Shown here piece by piece: positions 19,776 through 33,318 of a stretch of 40,726 nt of DNA. The stretch is from Sulfurimonas sp. (GTDB taxonomy: Bacteria > Campylobacterota > Campylobacteria > Campylobacterales > Sulfurimonadaceae). Every line of letters begins with the position of its first letter. The first letter of the stretch is position 1. Location: contig JANEIH010000007.1 in assembly GCA_024513425.1 (NCBI GenBank), positions 1 to 40,726 of the forward strand, given 5' to 3'. The notes under the pieces are model-generated. The model made no database searches. It saw only the letters and a list, made by a program, of their open reading frames with translations, and was not told where the DNA came from. Position numbers and translations under genes: made by a program.

Positions 19776-20438
19776 GTGCAAAAAATATTGATGATTGAAG
19801 ATGATTTGGAACTTGCCGAGATACTTACGGAGTACCTTGAACAGTTTGACTTTGAAGTAATAACAGAAGATGATCCTTTTAAAGCGGTAAGCATTTTAAA
19901 ACTAGAGCATTTTAATCTAGTAATACTTGACTTAACACTGCCGGGAATGGATGGGCTTGAGGTATGTGAAGCGATACGCGAGCGTCAAGATATTCCTATT
20001 ATTATCTCAAGTGCAAGAAGTGATGTGACAGACAAGATAAAAGCACTTGAGCTGGGTGCTGATGATTATCTGCCAAAACCTTATGATCCGCGTGAGCTTG
20101 AGGCACGCATTCGTTCAGTACTGCGTCGTTATGAAGCAAAAACCTCTGCAAAAGAGGAAAATAAAAGCGATTTTAAATGTGATAAATCAACGATGACGAT
20201 TACATACAAAGGGCGTAATATCGATCTGACAAATGCAGAGTTTGGGATACTCTCTTATATGATAAGTAAACAGGGGCTTGTTGTCTCACGCGAGGATCTC
20301 ATCCATAATGTAAACGCGATAAATGAAGACTCTTCAAACAAAAGTATTGATGTGATGGTAGGGCGTATCCGAAACAAACTAGGCGATAAGTCACTCATAG
20401 AATCTGTGCGTGGCGTGGGGTATAAACTTCTTAAATAA
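19776..20438 (+). CDS. OmpR-family response regulator, ArsR-like (ArsRS system)
   Basis: Two-domain DNA-binding response regulator of 220 residues. The receiver domain has the acidic pair Glu8/Asp9, the phospho-acceptor Asp52 (LDLTLPG) and Lys101 (LPKPYDP). A winged-helix OmpR/PhoB domain follows (about 125-220), ending 'VRGVGYKLL'. The sequence strongly resembles the H. pylori acid-response regulator ArsR (HP0166), including the 'MIEDDLELAE' start and 'DIPIIISSARSD'. The start is GTG at 19776 with AAAGGAG upstream. Its stop overlaps the kinase ATG by one base (TAATG). The regulon here is not known. Confidence 0.9.
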   Translation: MQKILMIEDDLELAEILTEYLEQFDFEVITEDDPFKAVSILKLEHFNLVILDLTLPGMDGLEVCEAIRERQDIPIIISSARSDVTDKIKALELGADDYLPKPYDPRELEARIRSVLRRYEAKTSAKEENKSDFKCDKSTMTITYKGRNIDLTNAEFGILSYMISKQGLVVSREDLIHNVNAINEDSSNKSIDVMVGRIRNKLGDKSLIESVRGVGYKLLK

Positions 20439-30451: not shown

Positions 30452-31585
30452 TTAATTAAACAGAGCCTCAAGTGCATCTACATTATCTTTTTTCTCTTCA
30501 ATCTCGCCATCTTCATTTGTTGTAGCATCTGTCTCAATAAGCTCTATCTGCATACCTGTTAGCATTGATGCTAGACGAATGTTGATACCGCTTTTTCCAA
30601 TCGCTTTACTTTTTTGGTCAGATGGAAGTGTAATGATCGCTTTTTCATTCTCACCTTCTCCATTTTTAACAATCTCTACATGAGAGATAATAGCTGGACT
30701 CATAACGCGTGAAACAAAAAGCTCAGGAATGTTTGTGTACTCGATACAGTCGATATTTTCACCGATAAGTTCCGCACTTACAGAGTTGATGCGTACCCCT
30801 TTTACGCCAACAGTGGCACCAACTGCATCAACTTGTGGATGTGTTGAGAGCAGTGCTGTTTTTGCTCTCTCACCCGGGATACGAGCTGATTTTTCGATAA
30901 TAACAGTACCGTCTGCAATTTCAGGTACTTCAAGTTCTAAAAGTGCCTCTAGGAACTTTGGTGATGTGCGTGAGAGCTCAATTGAGATGCCATGCTCTTT
31001 GTCCATATTTACACGGCGAACAACTGCTTTGATATGATCACCCACTTCAAAAATTTCACCCTTAATACGGCTTTTCATCGGTAATACTGCACGAATCTCA
31101 TTGACTTCTATGTAGGTTGCATTTTGCGCATCGACACGCGTCACACGCCCACTCACAAGTGTGCCTACTTTTGATTTGTACTTATTATAGACTTCATCCT
31201 CTACAAGTCTTTGGATGTGATACTCGATCTCACGGTGAAGTCCTGATGCCGCAGTTCTTCCATAATCTTCAAGGTCATGATCTATTTGTAGTTGGTCACC
31301 TAACTCTACTTGATCATCATACTCTCTAGCATCAGTGATTGAGATATACGCAGGTGCGATCTCCTCATCTTGCAGGCTCTCATCATCATTTTCAACAACT
31401 GTAATAGTTTGAACAATTTTTATATTTTTTGACTCTTCATCTATCATGGCTTCAAAAGCAAAGTTTGGGTTGATGACTCTTTTTGCAGTCTGAATAAATG
31501 CGGTCTTTAAAGCTTCTAAAACTTTTTCTGACTCAAGCCCTTTTTCATGAGCGATTGCTTCTGCAATGTCTAATATTTTTTCCAT
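30452..31585 (-). CDS. nusA: Transcription elongation/termination factor NusA
   Basis: Binds RNA polymerase and affects pausing, termination and antitermination. The N-terminal domain (1-125) starts 'MEKILDIAEAIAHEKGLESEKV'-like, read in parts. An S1 domain (about 135-200) contains 'VSGRVTRVDAQNATYIEV'. Two KH domains follow, with 'AIGKSGINIRLASMLTG' near the C-terminus. At 377 residues it lacks the acidic repeats of E. coli NusA but ends in an acidic segment, as usual for this phylum. AAGGAAA precedes the ATG. It is alone, divergent from the HP0268-like gene, with an unusual inverted-repeat promoter region. Confidence 0.95.
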   Translation of the reverse strand: MEKILDIAEAIAHEKGLESEKVLEALKTAFIQTAKRVINPNFAFEAMIDEESKNIKIVQTITVVENDDESLQDEEIAPAYISITDAREYDDQVELGDQLQIDHDLEDYGRTAASGLHREIEYHIQRLVEDEVYNKYKSKVGTLVSGRVTRVDAQNATYIEVNEIRAVLPMKSRIKGEIFEVGDHIKAVVRRVNMDKEHGISIELSRTSPKFLEALLELEVPEIADGTVIIEKSARIPGERAKTALLSTHPQVDAVGATVGVKGVRINSVSAELIGENIDCIEYTNIPELFVSRVMSPAIISHVEIVKNGEGENEKAIITLPSDQKSKAIGKSGINIRLASMLTGMQIELIETDATTNEDGEIEEKKDNVDALEALFN

Positions 31586-31603: not shown

Positions 31604-31647
31604 TAAGAAATCTTTTTAACAATGATAACTCTTTGGAGGATTTCTTA
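31604..31647 (-). promoter_or_regulatory. nusA leader hairpin
   Basis: TAAGAAATC (31604-31612) and GATTTCTTA (31639-31647) are 9-base inverted arms that would fold in the nusA 5' leader. The loop side carries a CCTCC-like stretch on the minus strand. It could affect nusA translation; this is inferred from shape only. Confidence 0.35.
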
Positions 31648-31657
31648 TTGAAGTAAG

Positions 31658-31740
31658 GCATTGTACTTAAATTCTACTAAAAACATCTTTAATTAGCTTT
31701 TTAGTAGAATTTAAGTATAATGCAGAACTTTTATAATGCA
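31658..31740. promoter_or_regulatory. Mirror-image divergent promoters in a 26-bp inverted repeat
   Basis: Arms at 31658-31683 and 31698-31723 are inverted copies with one mismatch, separated by 14 bases. The right arm carries TATAATGC (+ strand, 31716-31723). The left arm carries TACAATGC on the minus strand (31665-31658), directing transcription of nusA. A further TATAATGCA copy lies at 31732-31740. The two promoters therefore share nearly the same sequence and spacing, suggesting joint control of nusA and the HP0268-like operon. Confidence 0.6.
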
Positions 31741-31755
31741 AAGGAAACTACTTAG

Positions 31756-32001
31756 ATGGATTTAAAATTAGCTAGAGCAGATTTAGGTGCAAAACCAAAA
31801 AAGATTAATTTGGCAAAGATTGAAGAGAAAGTTGTAAGAGAAGAGAGTGTGATTTTTTACTTCGACAGAGAAAATTCCCACAAAAATTTACTTGCATTGC
31901 AAGATCACTTTGAAGGGCAGGGTAGAAGTTTTTACATGAGTGAAGTGAAGTATGGATTGTCAGACAATGACTATATGTACCAAGTTCACATAATGAGCTA
32001 A
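31756..32001 (+). CDS. HP0268-family small nuclease-like protein
   Basis: An 81-residue protein resembling H. pylori HP0268, a small protein that has been reported as a nicking endonuclease and purine-specific ribonuclease. Matching stretches are 'VIFYFDRENSHKNLLAL' in the middle and 'DNDYMYQVHIM' at the end. There is no signal peptide. AAAGGAAA lies before the ATG. Position next to miaB and opposite nusA is conserved in the phylum. Nuclease function is carried over from HP0268 and not shown by a recognised catalytic motif. Confidence 0.75.
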   Translation: MDLKLARADLGAKPKKINLAKIEEKVVREESVIFYFDRENSHKNLLALQDHFEGQGRSFYMSEVKYGLSDNDYMYQVHIMS

Positions 32002-32013
32002 AACGGAATATCT

Positions 32014-33318
32014 GTGAGTAAAAAACTTTTTATTGAGACACTCGGTTGTGCGATGAATTCGCGTGATAGTGAACATATAATCGCATCTCTAAAAGAGAAA
32101 GAGGGTTATGAAACAACAGATGATATGAAGAGTGCCGATCTGATTTTGATTAACACTTGTTCAGTCCGTGAAAAACCTGTTGCAAAGCTTTTCTCAGAAC
32201 TCGGTGTGTTCAATAAAAAGAAGAAAGAGGGTGCAAAGATAGGTGTATGCGGTTGTACTGCTTCACACCTTGGTTATGAGATTATTAGGCGTGCCCCTTA
32301 TGTCAGTTTTGTATTGGGTGCTCGTAATGTTTCAAAGATTACGGAAGTACTACATAAAGAGAGGGCTGTTGAAATTGACATCAATTATGATGAGAGTGAA
32401 TTTGCTTTTGATGATTTTAGAACATCCCCCTATAAAGCCTATATTAATATCTCCATAGGTTGCGACAAACAGTGTGCCTTTTGTATTGTTCCAAAGACGC
32501 GGGGTGAAGAGATCTCTATCCCGGACGAATTAATCATACAAGAAGCACAGCGTGCAGTTGATAATGGTGCAAAAGAGATATTTTTACTCGGGCAAAATGT
32601 CAATAATTATGGTCGCAGATTCTCTTCGTCAGAGCATGAGAAGGTAAATTTTACAGAGCTCCTTCGCCGTCTTTCAAAGATAGAAAATCTTCGCCGTATC
32701 CGCTTTACTTCCCCACATCCTTTTCATATGGATGATGAGTTTATTGAAGAGTTTGCGAACAATCCGAAAATATGCAAGTCGATGCATATGCCACTGCAGA
32801 GTGGAAGTACAAAAGTGCTTAAAGCCATGAAGCGTGGCTACTCTAAAGAGTGGTTCTTAAATCGCGTGAAAAAACTTCGCTTGATTTGTCCTGAAGTAAG
32901 TATCTCTACTGATATCATTGTTGCTTTTCCCGGTGAGAGTGAAGAGGATTTTTTCGAGACGATTGATGTGATGAGAGAGGTGAAATTTGATCAGATATTT
33001 TCCTTTAAATACTCTGCGCGTCCTGAAACGGAAGCAGAGCATTTCCCTGATGTTATAGATCCAAAAGTTGCGTCTGATAGACTTTCATATCTACAGGCAT
33101 TCTATACGGAGATACTTGATGCAAAGAGCCAAAAACAGCTGGGAAAAGTTTATGAAGTCTATTTTGAAGAGCTCAATGCAGATGGGTATGTCTCAGGAAG
33201 AACAGATAATAATCTTGTTGTTAAAGTAAAAGGTTCAGAAGAGTTGCTTGGTAAGTTTAGGGATGTAAAAATCACAAAAATCGGACGAACAATTTATACA
33301 GGTGAGATTCTTGTTTAA
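32014..33318 (+). CDS. miaB: tRNA-2-methylthio-N6-dimethylallyladenosine synthase MiaB
   Basis: Radical-SAM methylthiotransferase that adds the ms2 group to i6A37 of tRNA. The radical-SAM cluster Cys150, Cys154 and Cys157 is in CDKQCAFC. The N-terminal UPF0004 domain supplies Cys12, Cys49 and Cys79/81 for the second cluster, and a C-terminal TRAM domain follows. At 434 residues it is normal. The start is GTG at 32014 with a weak GGAA upstream. It overlaps the following acyltransferase gene by 17 bases. Its cousin rimO lies nearby on the other strand. Confidence 0.95.

Follow-up and report, generated by a model that had tools for sequence, protein, structure and literature searches.

A near-perfect inverted repeat between nusA and HP0268-miaB in a Sulfurimonas genome is probably a bidirectional promoter on a mirrored HP1043/HsrA-type operator

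Results

Genes and features of the nusA-HP0268 locus

We analyzed a 40,726-nt stretch of Sulfurimonas sp. DNA (contig JANEIH010000007.1; hereafter the window), in which nusA and an HP0268-miaB operon diverge from an intergenic palindrome. An initial annotation made from the letters alone had named both flanking genes, and their Pfam domains show these identities to be correct. The features of the locus are as follows.

30452-31585, minus strand: nusA coding sequence (Pfam NusA_N, KH_5, KH_NusA_C)
31604-31647, minus strand: hairpin with a C-rich loop, placed in what is presumed to be the 5' leader of nusA; its 3' strand has two alternatives within the family
31658-31683, no strand: left arm of the inverted repeat (from sequence)
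31660-31665, minus strand: nusA promoter -10 box TACAAT (from sequence; a -10 box at such a distance is common in relatives)
31677-31682, minus strand: proximal hexamer TTTTAG of the putative nusA-side operator (pattern analysis)
31688-31693, no strand: central hexamer TTTAAT / ATTAAA, common to both putative operators (pattern analysis)
31698-31723, no strand: right arm of the inverted repeat (from sequence)
31699-31704, plus strand: proximal hexamer TTTTAG of the putative HP0268-side operator (pattern analysis)
31716-31721, plus strand: HP0268-miaB promoter -10 box TATAAT, 29 nt after the C of CTTTAA
31732-31739, plus strand: TATAATGC, third copy, lying within the presumed 5' leader; considered not to work as a promoter
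31740-31747, plus strand: HP0268 ribosome-binding site AAAGGAAA (from sequence)
31756-32001, plus strand: HP0268-family gene (PF18618, E 1.3e-34)
32014-33318, plus strand: miaB (UPF0004, Radical_SAM and TRAM, MiaB-type domains)

HP0268 was detected in 144 of 151 genomes sampled from the family and in 199 of 200 sampled from the class; by this protein the nearest named relative among the search matches is Sulfurimonas indica NW8N (90%). A divergent nusA lies upstream of HP0268 in 174 of the 180 loci examined first, a set that includes duplicates of one genome, and in 66 of 70 loci of a class-wide sample. In that sample nusA had no match at L188, L237 and L254, and L225 was also counted as lacking it, its stretch having been set too far downstream of the place covered by L226. 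The gap between the two genes is mostly 160-190 bp. The window's own genome is 1.35 Mb at 99.96% completeness, and all same-genus genomes among the matches listed are larger (at least 1.5 Mb, mostly at least 2 Mb); it is perhaps a reduced, symbiont-like genome.

An exceptional intergenic palindrome

The inverted repeat lies between nusA and HP0268-miaB and consists of arms GCATTGTACTTAAATTCTACTAAAAA (31658-31683) and TTTTTAGTAGAATTTAAGTATAATGC (31698-31723), each of 26 nt, separated by 14 nt and identical at 25 of 26 positions. Its centre, 31690.5, is also the centre of TTTAAT (31688-31693). The description of this region as a 26-bp near-perfect inverted repeat is borne out, with one mismatch and scores well beyond chance. 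Its inverted-repeat score of 23 is the highest among 135 intergenic gaps, with a runner-up of 15; these gaps, 40 of them divergent, 78 tandem and 17 convergent, measure 40-600 nt, lie between ORFs called automatically and come from the window and from 400 kb of a sister genome, sampled as 20 stretches of 20 kb. A 19-mer of the arm, with up to three mismatches, has two matches in the window against 0.08 expected, and the predicted single-strand fold of the palindrome has a z score of -6.9 and was equalled by none of 200 shuffles. Two other kinds of element were considered and set aside. A DNA search of its own genome matched only the palindrome's own place and its own mirror image, which speaks against a dispersed repeat or mobile element, and an RNA family was dropped after an Rfam scan of the window returned no match at the gathering score.

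Two outward promoters without -35 boxes

Each arm carries one -10 box, as the initial annotation had noted: the minus-strand box is TACAAT (31665-31660), the plus-strand box TATAAT (31716-31721). We consider it very likely that the two arms are promoters facing away from each other, that is, a bidirectional promoter. The architecture, which is found far beyond this genome, supports the earlier proposal of mirrored outward promoters for nusA and HP0268-miaB, and its conservation also makes the suggested regulatory tie between nusA and miaB likely. The palindrome can be described as three A/T-rich hexamers in 11-bp steps, with each outer hexamer 11 bp from its outward -10 box. A consensus sigma-70 promoter scan listed neither promoter and no -35-like hexamer for either, a silence to be expected of promoters that lack a -35 box. 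The possibility that CTTTAA is boxA-like was dropped since the hexamer lies upstream of both presumed start sites; the replacement of CTTTAA by CTTAAT in L172 (titled Sulfuricurvum) and similar loci also speaks against it. The third TATAATGC copy proposed earlier is indeed present, but it is poorly conserved, with TANAAT at its offset in only 8 of 88 family loci, and is unlikely to be a useful promoter. It ends just before the ribosome-binding site (31740-31747), so its transcript would be expected to begin at or beyond that site and would probably lack it; it is best read as an A/T-rich leader.

Conservation was assessed in 153 distinct family loci, which come partly from searches favouring near relatives. 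The 88 loci used above were chosen from these for a CTTTAA core with a -10 box on each side, so that the invariance of CTTTAA among them is by construction. The distance from the core to the HP0268 -10 box is exactly 29 nt in 84 of the 88, and exact symmetry holds in 61, which were grouped into 35 clusters. The HP0268-side pattern HTTAAN-N5-HTTWAN-N11-TANNNT occurs in 129 of the 153 family loci and in 29 of 59 distinct loci of other families, counts in which loci with longer promoter-to-start-codon spacers score as misses. Shuffled controls gave means of 0.3 (family) and 0.25 (other families), and register-shifted controls, with both hexamers moved relative to the -10 box, gave 0-22 and 0-11. 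The nusA-side operator is less conserved than the HP0268 side: it is exact in 55 of the 153 family loci, window included, present only in a shifted form (-2, -1 or +1) in 27 more and found in none of the 59 other-family loci, and its shifted controls are not small.

The distance between the two -10 boxes falls into two main classes. In a spacing survey, 158 of 208 loci had the HP0268 operator and a left -10 box, with tied candidates in eight, including the window, where TACAAT at 50 bp ties with TAGAAT at 39 bp. Among the 150 loci with a unique best candidate, the distance was 39 bp in 35, 49 bp in 19 and 50 bp in 64; 10 near-identical loci had 73 bp, and 22 lay elsewhere. The two commonest distances thus differ by about one helical turn. 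The 39-bp form has a single hexamer pair that stands 11 bp from both -10 boxes, and the 50-bp form has room for a third hexamer one turn away, the centre being shared. The fit of the central hexamer to both sides at 39 and 50 bp is a consequence of the spacing and adds no independent evidence. Such evidence comes from the outer hexamer on the nusA side: among 71 loci of the 50-bp form, 58 match a loose HWTWAN there.

The presumed nusA leader carries a hairpin whose strands are TAAGAAATC (31647-31639, minus strand) and GATTTCTTA (31612-31604). Scored locus by locus, 101 of 139 distinct family leaders have a stem that at most 1 of 30 shuffles equals, and CCC lies in or beside the loop in 104 of the 139. 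The 3' strand occurs in two forms, GATTTCTTA and TTTTTTATGA, with much the same 5' partner; only 5 of 55 nusA leaders from other families pass the same stem test. The hairpin has no Rfam match, and RNAalifold found no consensus in a 56-sequence leader alignment that is full of gaps. We regard it as a candidate regulator of nusA.

Near identity of the arms is lineage-specific

The initial annotation had explained the repeat as a promoter duplicated in inverted orientation. This is not borne out: in L012, L039, L045 and L049 the two -10 boxes are both present, at a distance of 50 bp, and the arms clearly differ, and relatives of this kind make the likeness of the arms secondary. The expectation that the arms would be conserved along with the genes held in part; among relatives the promoter elements are conserved but arm identity is not. 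A promoter palindrome score of at least 15 occurs in only 11 of the 153 family loci, and the nearest relative seen (L004) keeps most of the palindrome, with 24-nt arms and one mismatch. Across the 35 clusters, hexamers match between arms about as often as composition predicts (185 versus 181.8, sd 2.7), and so do the -10 boxes (195 versus 195.5). In the 11-bp spacers, two arms of one genome agree more often than arms taken from different genomes (213 versus 191.7, sd 7.1; 33 of 20000 permutations), in a test that removed descent only by clustering at 85%.

Eight hand-picked pairs of relatives were compared pair by pair rather than counted on a tree, and they include the pairing-restoring two-arm changes of a template-switch quasi-palindrome. 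L141 and L146 differ at one position, where both arms have changed. Two positions of this kind separate L106 from L001, L004 and L103, and the remaining four pairs have no two-arm change. Template switching at quasi-palindromes is a known mutational process that makes such a pattern without selection (PMC8604942). The near identity of the arms is specific to the lineage and probably the product of concerted change of a quasi-palindrome by template switching, which fits better than duplication or long-term selection for identity. In L107, the nusA-HP0268 intergenic region holds a 75-bp stretch in the middle of the putative operator, with 12-bp inverted ends TTAAGGGCACCT and AGGTGCCCTTAA, which looks like a small mobile element.

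A candidate regulator of the HP1043/HsrA type

The arrangement resembles the sites of HP1043 (HsrA), an essential orphan OmpR/PhoB-type regulator of H. pylori, which has a consensus of two TTTAAG hexamers, 5 bp apart, immediately before the -10 box of promoters that lack a -35; about one third of its promoter sites are bidirectional, and translation arrest induces its targets (PMC5253667). The window's own genome encodes a close ortholog (G000:C69:8405-9073; E 8.7e-88 against 2hqr, HP1043). Aligned residue by residue with 2hqr, its DNA-binding domain is nearly unchanged, and it keeps all of R192, K197, T206 and R208, the residues named as fundamental for DNA binding (PMC8345958). The ortholog is present in 25 of 26 genomes of the genus. 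The window itself encodes a second OmpR/PhoB-type response regulator (C-terminal domain 20211-20429), which is not the HsrA ortholog.

By hand count, the right site, TTTAAT-N5-TTTTAG, has 10 of the 12 bases of the TTTAAG pair with the same 5-bp spacer, and the left site, ATTAAA-N5-TTTTAG, has 9 of 12. With respect to the most important bases, ttTAAG-N5-tTTAAg (PMC8345958), the right site keeps six of eight, departing by T for G in the first hexamer and T for the first A in the second; that consensus is the H. pylori one and may have drifted in Sulfurimonas. The site adjoins a -10 box without -35, its hexamers ending 11 bp before the box. If transcription starts near 31728, as we infer, the hexamers would span about -40 to -24, and the HP1043 footprint on Php1227, where the protein activates, covers -42 to -23 (PMC8345958). 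On these grounds the palindrome is likely to contain an HsrA-type operator with a shared central hexamer.

The promoters of hsrA itself in the genus (L283-L306) contain CTTTAA in all 24 with enough sequence, mostly within CTTTAAAGTAACCTAAAA-like sequence; in 22 of the 24 its distance to the -10-like box just downstream is 24 nt instead of 29. Autoregulation of hsrA is possible. The hsrA promoter was not among the sites matching the spaced-hexamer pattern in the scan of three genomes described below. In the literature searched, no paper mentions nusA together with HP1043, or nusA together with CosR and Campylobacter; nusA was likewise absent from the 15 of 45 matches listed in a broader search that covered HsrA. 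A passage search of one of two papers that mention both Sulfurimonas and transcription start sites also found no nusA.

The same architecture precedes other genes

A first pattern gave five matches in the window's own genome against one in its control, which was uninformative, whereas a more degenerate pattern separated clearly. HTTAA-N6-HTTWA-N12-TAYAAT has 10, 11 and 11 sites in the window's own genome and two relatives, and the reversed pattern has none in any of the three. With altered spacings the counts were 6, of which 4 were sites already matched by the pattern, 2 and 3. Of the 32 pattern sites, 27 lie outside nusA-HP0268. Sites precede purL, rplU, rpmJ, a c-type cytochrome gene and HP0268 in all three genomes, and nusA, atpE and a gene for a lipoprotein-like product in two. 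Three further sites occur in two of the three genomes, in each case once by site likeness alone: one at 16S rRNA, which Rfam confirms at L328 (L327 ends at a contig edge), one at an outer-membrane-type gene and one that has a TetR-type gene after it in just one of the genomes. The identities of purL, L21, L36 and ATP synthase C are supported by Pfam; for the cytochrome the match is weak, with E 0.0006 and 21.5 bits where the cut-off is 21.3.

In H. pylori, HP1043 has ChIP peaks at rpl36/rpmJ, atpE, cytc553 and 16S rRNA. The overlap with our sites is thus partial and holds for kinds of gene (rpmJ, atpE, 16S rRNA and a c-type cytochrome); nusA, HP0268, rplU and purL, among others, are absent from the 37-peak H. 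pylori table. These comparisons make HsrA the best candidate regulator. Highly expressed genes may also share a promoter design for reasons other than a common regulator. TTTAAG-N5-CTTAAA, the form of the H. pylori Php1227 site, occurs at G031:C52:108576-108609 and G001:C1:1994347-1994380; the G001 site precedes a gene for an outer-membrane-type protein.

Discussion

Our results support a model in which the palindrome is probably a bidirectional promoter on a mirrored, overlapping HP1043/HsrA-type operator. The basis in hand is the sequence architecture, its conservation, the regulator ortholog and the other genes with the same architecture, which overlap HP1043 targets. From these we infer binding and activation by HsrA, the start sites and any competition between the promoters. 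In the proposed mechanism, a dimer of the HsrA ortholog on the right hexamer pair would activate HP0268-miaB, and a dimer on the left pair would activate nusA. Since the central hexamer is shared, a single dimer would have to act on one side or the other, unless a higher assembly acts on both; competition between nusA and HP0268-miaB is possible and follows from the geometry. The near identity of the arms would be tolerated, since promoter function is all that is required of each arm.

The same region could instead consist of two ordinary back-to-back sigma-70-type promoters, with no shared regulator and with a symmetry that comes from a T-rich periodic upstream region plus TATAAT. C. jejuni promoters have a periodic signal and no -35 box, and T-runs that recur with a period near 10-11 are general in the promoters of Campylobacteria (PMC3847290). 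In the window and the sister genome, T peaks near -5, -16 and -26 before TANAAT sites, and in the hexamers and -10 boxes the two arms of one genome agree no better than arms of different genomes do, as this explanation would have it. However, TTTAA stands at exactly -28 at only 3 of 159 TANAAT sites upstream of ORFs, with HP0268 among the three; the N5/N11 spacing finds many more sites than the altered spacings, and the genes that carry it overlap HP1043 targets. A difference of about one helical turn between the two commonest -10 distances likewise argues against ordinary sigma-70 promoters, and we consider this explanation unlikely.

Selection on arm identity itself, whether for a cruciform or DNA hairpin or for the site of another dimeric regulator, is improbable. 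The strong predicted fold speaks for it, as do the perfect or near-perfect palindromes of L106, L141 and L146 and the concerted two-arm changes. Few family loci reach a high palindrome score, however, the excess arm matching sits in the spacer and not in the conserved hexamers, and template switching yields the same pattern without selection (PMC8604942). In addition, the repeat lies upstream of both presumed start sites and so in neither RNA. The regulatory role for a cruciform raised in the initial annotation finds no support beyond the predicted fold, and the mirrored promoter elements explain the symmetry. Least credible of all, and hardly to be entertained, is a recent inverted duplication of one promoter that made the second. 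It would account for the near-identical arms of the window but not for relatives with both -10 boxes and different arms, and both boxes are also found in many loci of other genera and families.

The mirrored HsrA-type operator that we favour resembles known HP1043/HsrA operators such as Php1227 in having two hexamers, separated by 5 bp and thus one helical turn apart, that immediately precede a -10 box with no -35; such operators often lie in bidirectional promoters, and the kinds of target overlap (rpl36, atpE, cytochrome c and 16S rRNA). The putative operator here differs in that two mirrored sites share a central hexamer and in its hexamers (TTTAAT/TTTTAG rather than TTTAAG), and nusA and HP0268-miaB are not among the listed HP1043 peaks of H. 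pylori. CosR of Campylobacter jejuni (Cj0355c), presumably orthologous to the HsrA-type protein here, is an essential OmpR-type regulator. HP1043 is named 13 times in a paper on CosR (PMC3139631). The palindrome shares a -10 box and a periodic upstream signal with the sigma-70 promoters of Campylobacteria that lack -35 (PMC3847290), but has in addition a TTAA hexamer fixed at -28 and, mirrored across it, a partner promoter that shares this hexamer. The homogenised arms and two-arm changes are like those of template-switch quasi-palindrome correction, although the work cited is on yeast coding DNA (PMC8604942) and the case here, divergent promoters, is read from sequence.

A broader proposal, which we regard as possible but doubtful as a whole, is that an essential orphan regulator on a three-hexamer mirror operator chooses between or bridges nusA and HP0268-miaB, with a geometry that evolves in helical turns (39 or 50 bp) across much of Campylobacteria, and so forms a switch linking transcription elongation to tRNA modification. 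The architecture HTTAAN-N5-HTTWAN-N11-TAYAAT can be scanned for in other Campylobacteria genomes, and the predicted regulon lies outside the pathogens in which the regulator was studied. The mirrored operator with its shared hexamer offers a testable case of two promoters competing for one dimer. If the model is correct, nusA, a core elongation factor, would be placed under an HP1043-type master regulator, and expression of this transcription gene might be coupled to, or in competition with, that of a tRNA-modification operon.
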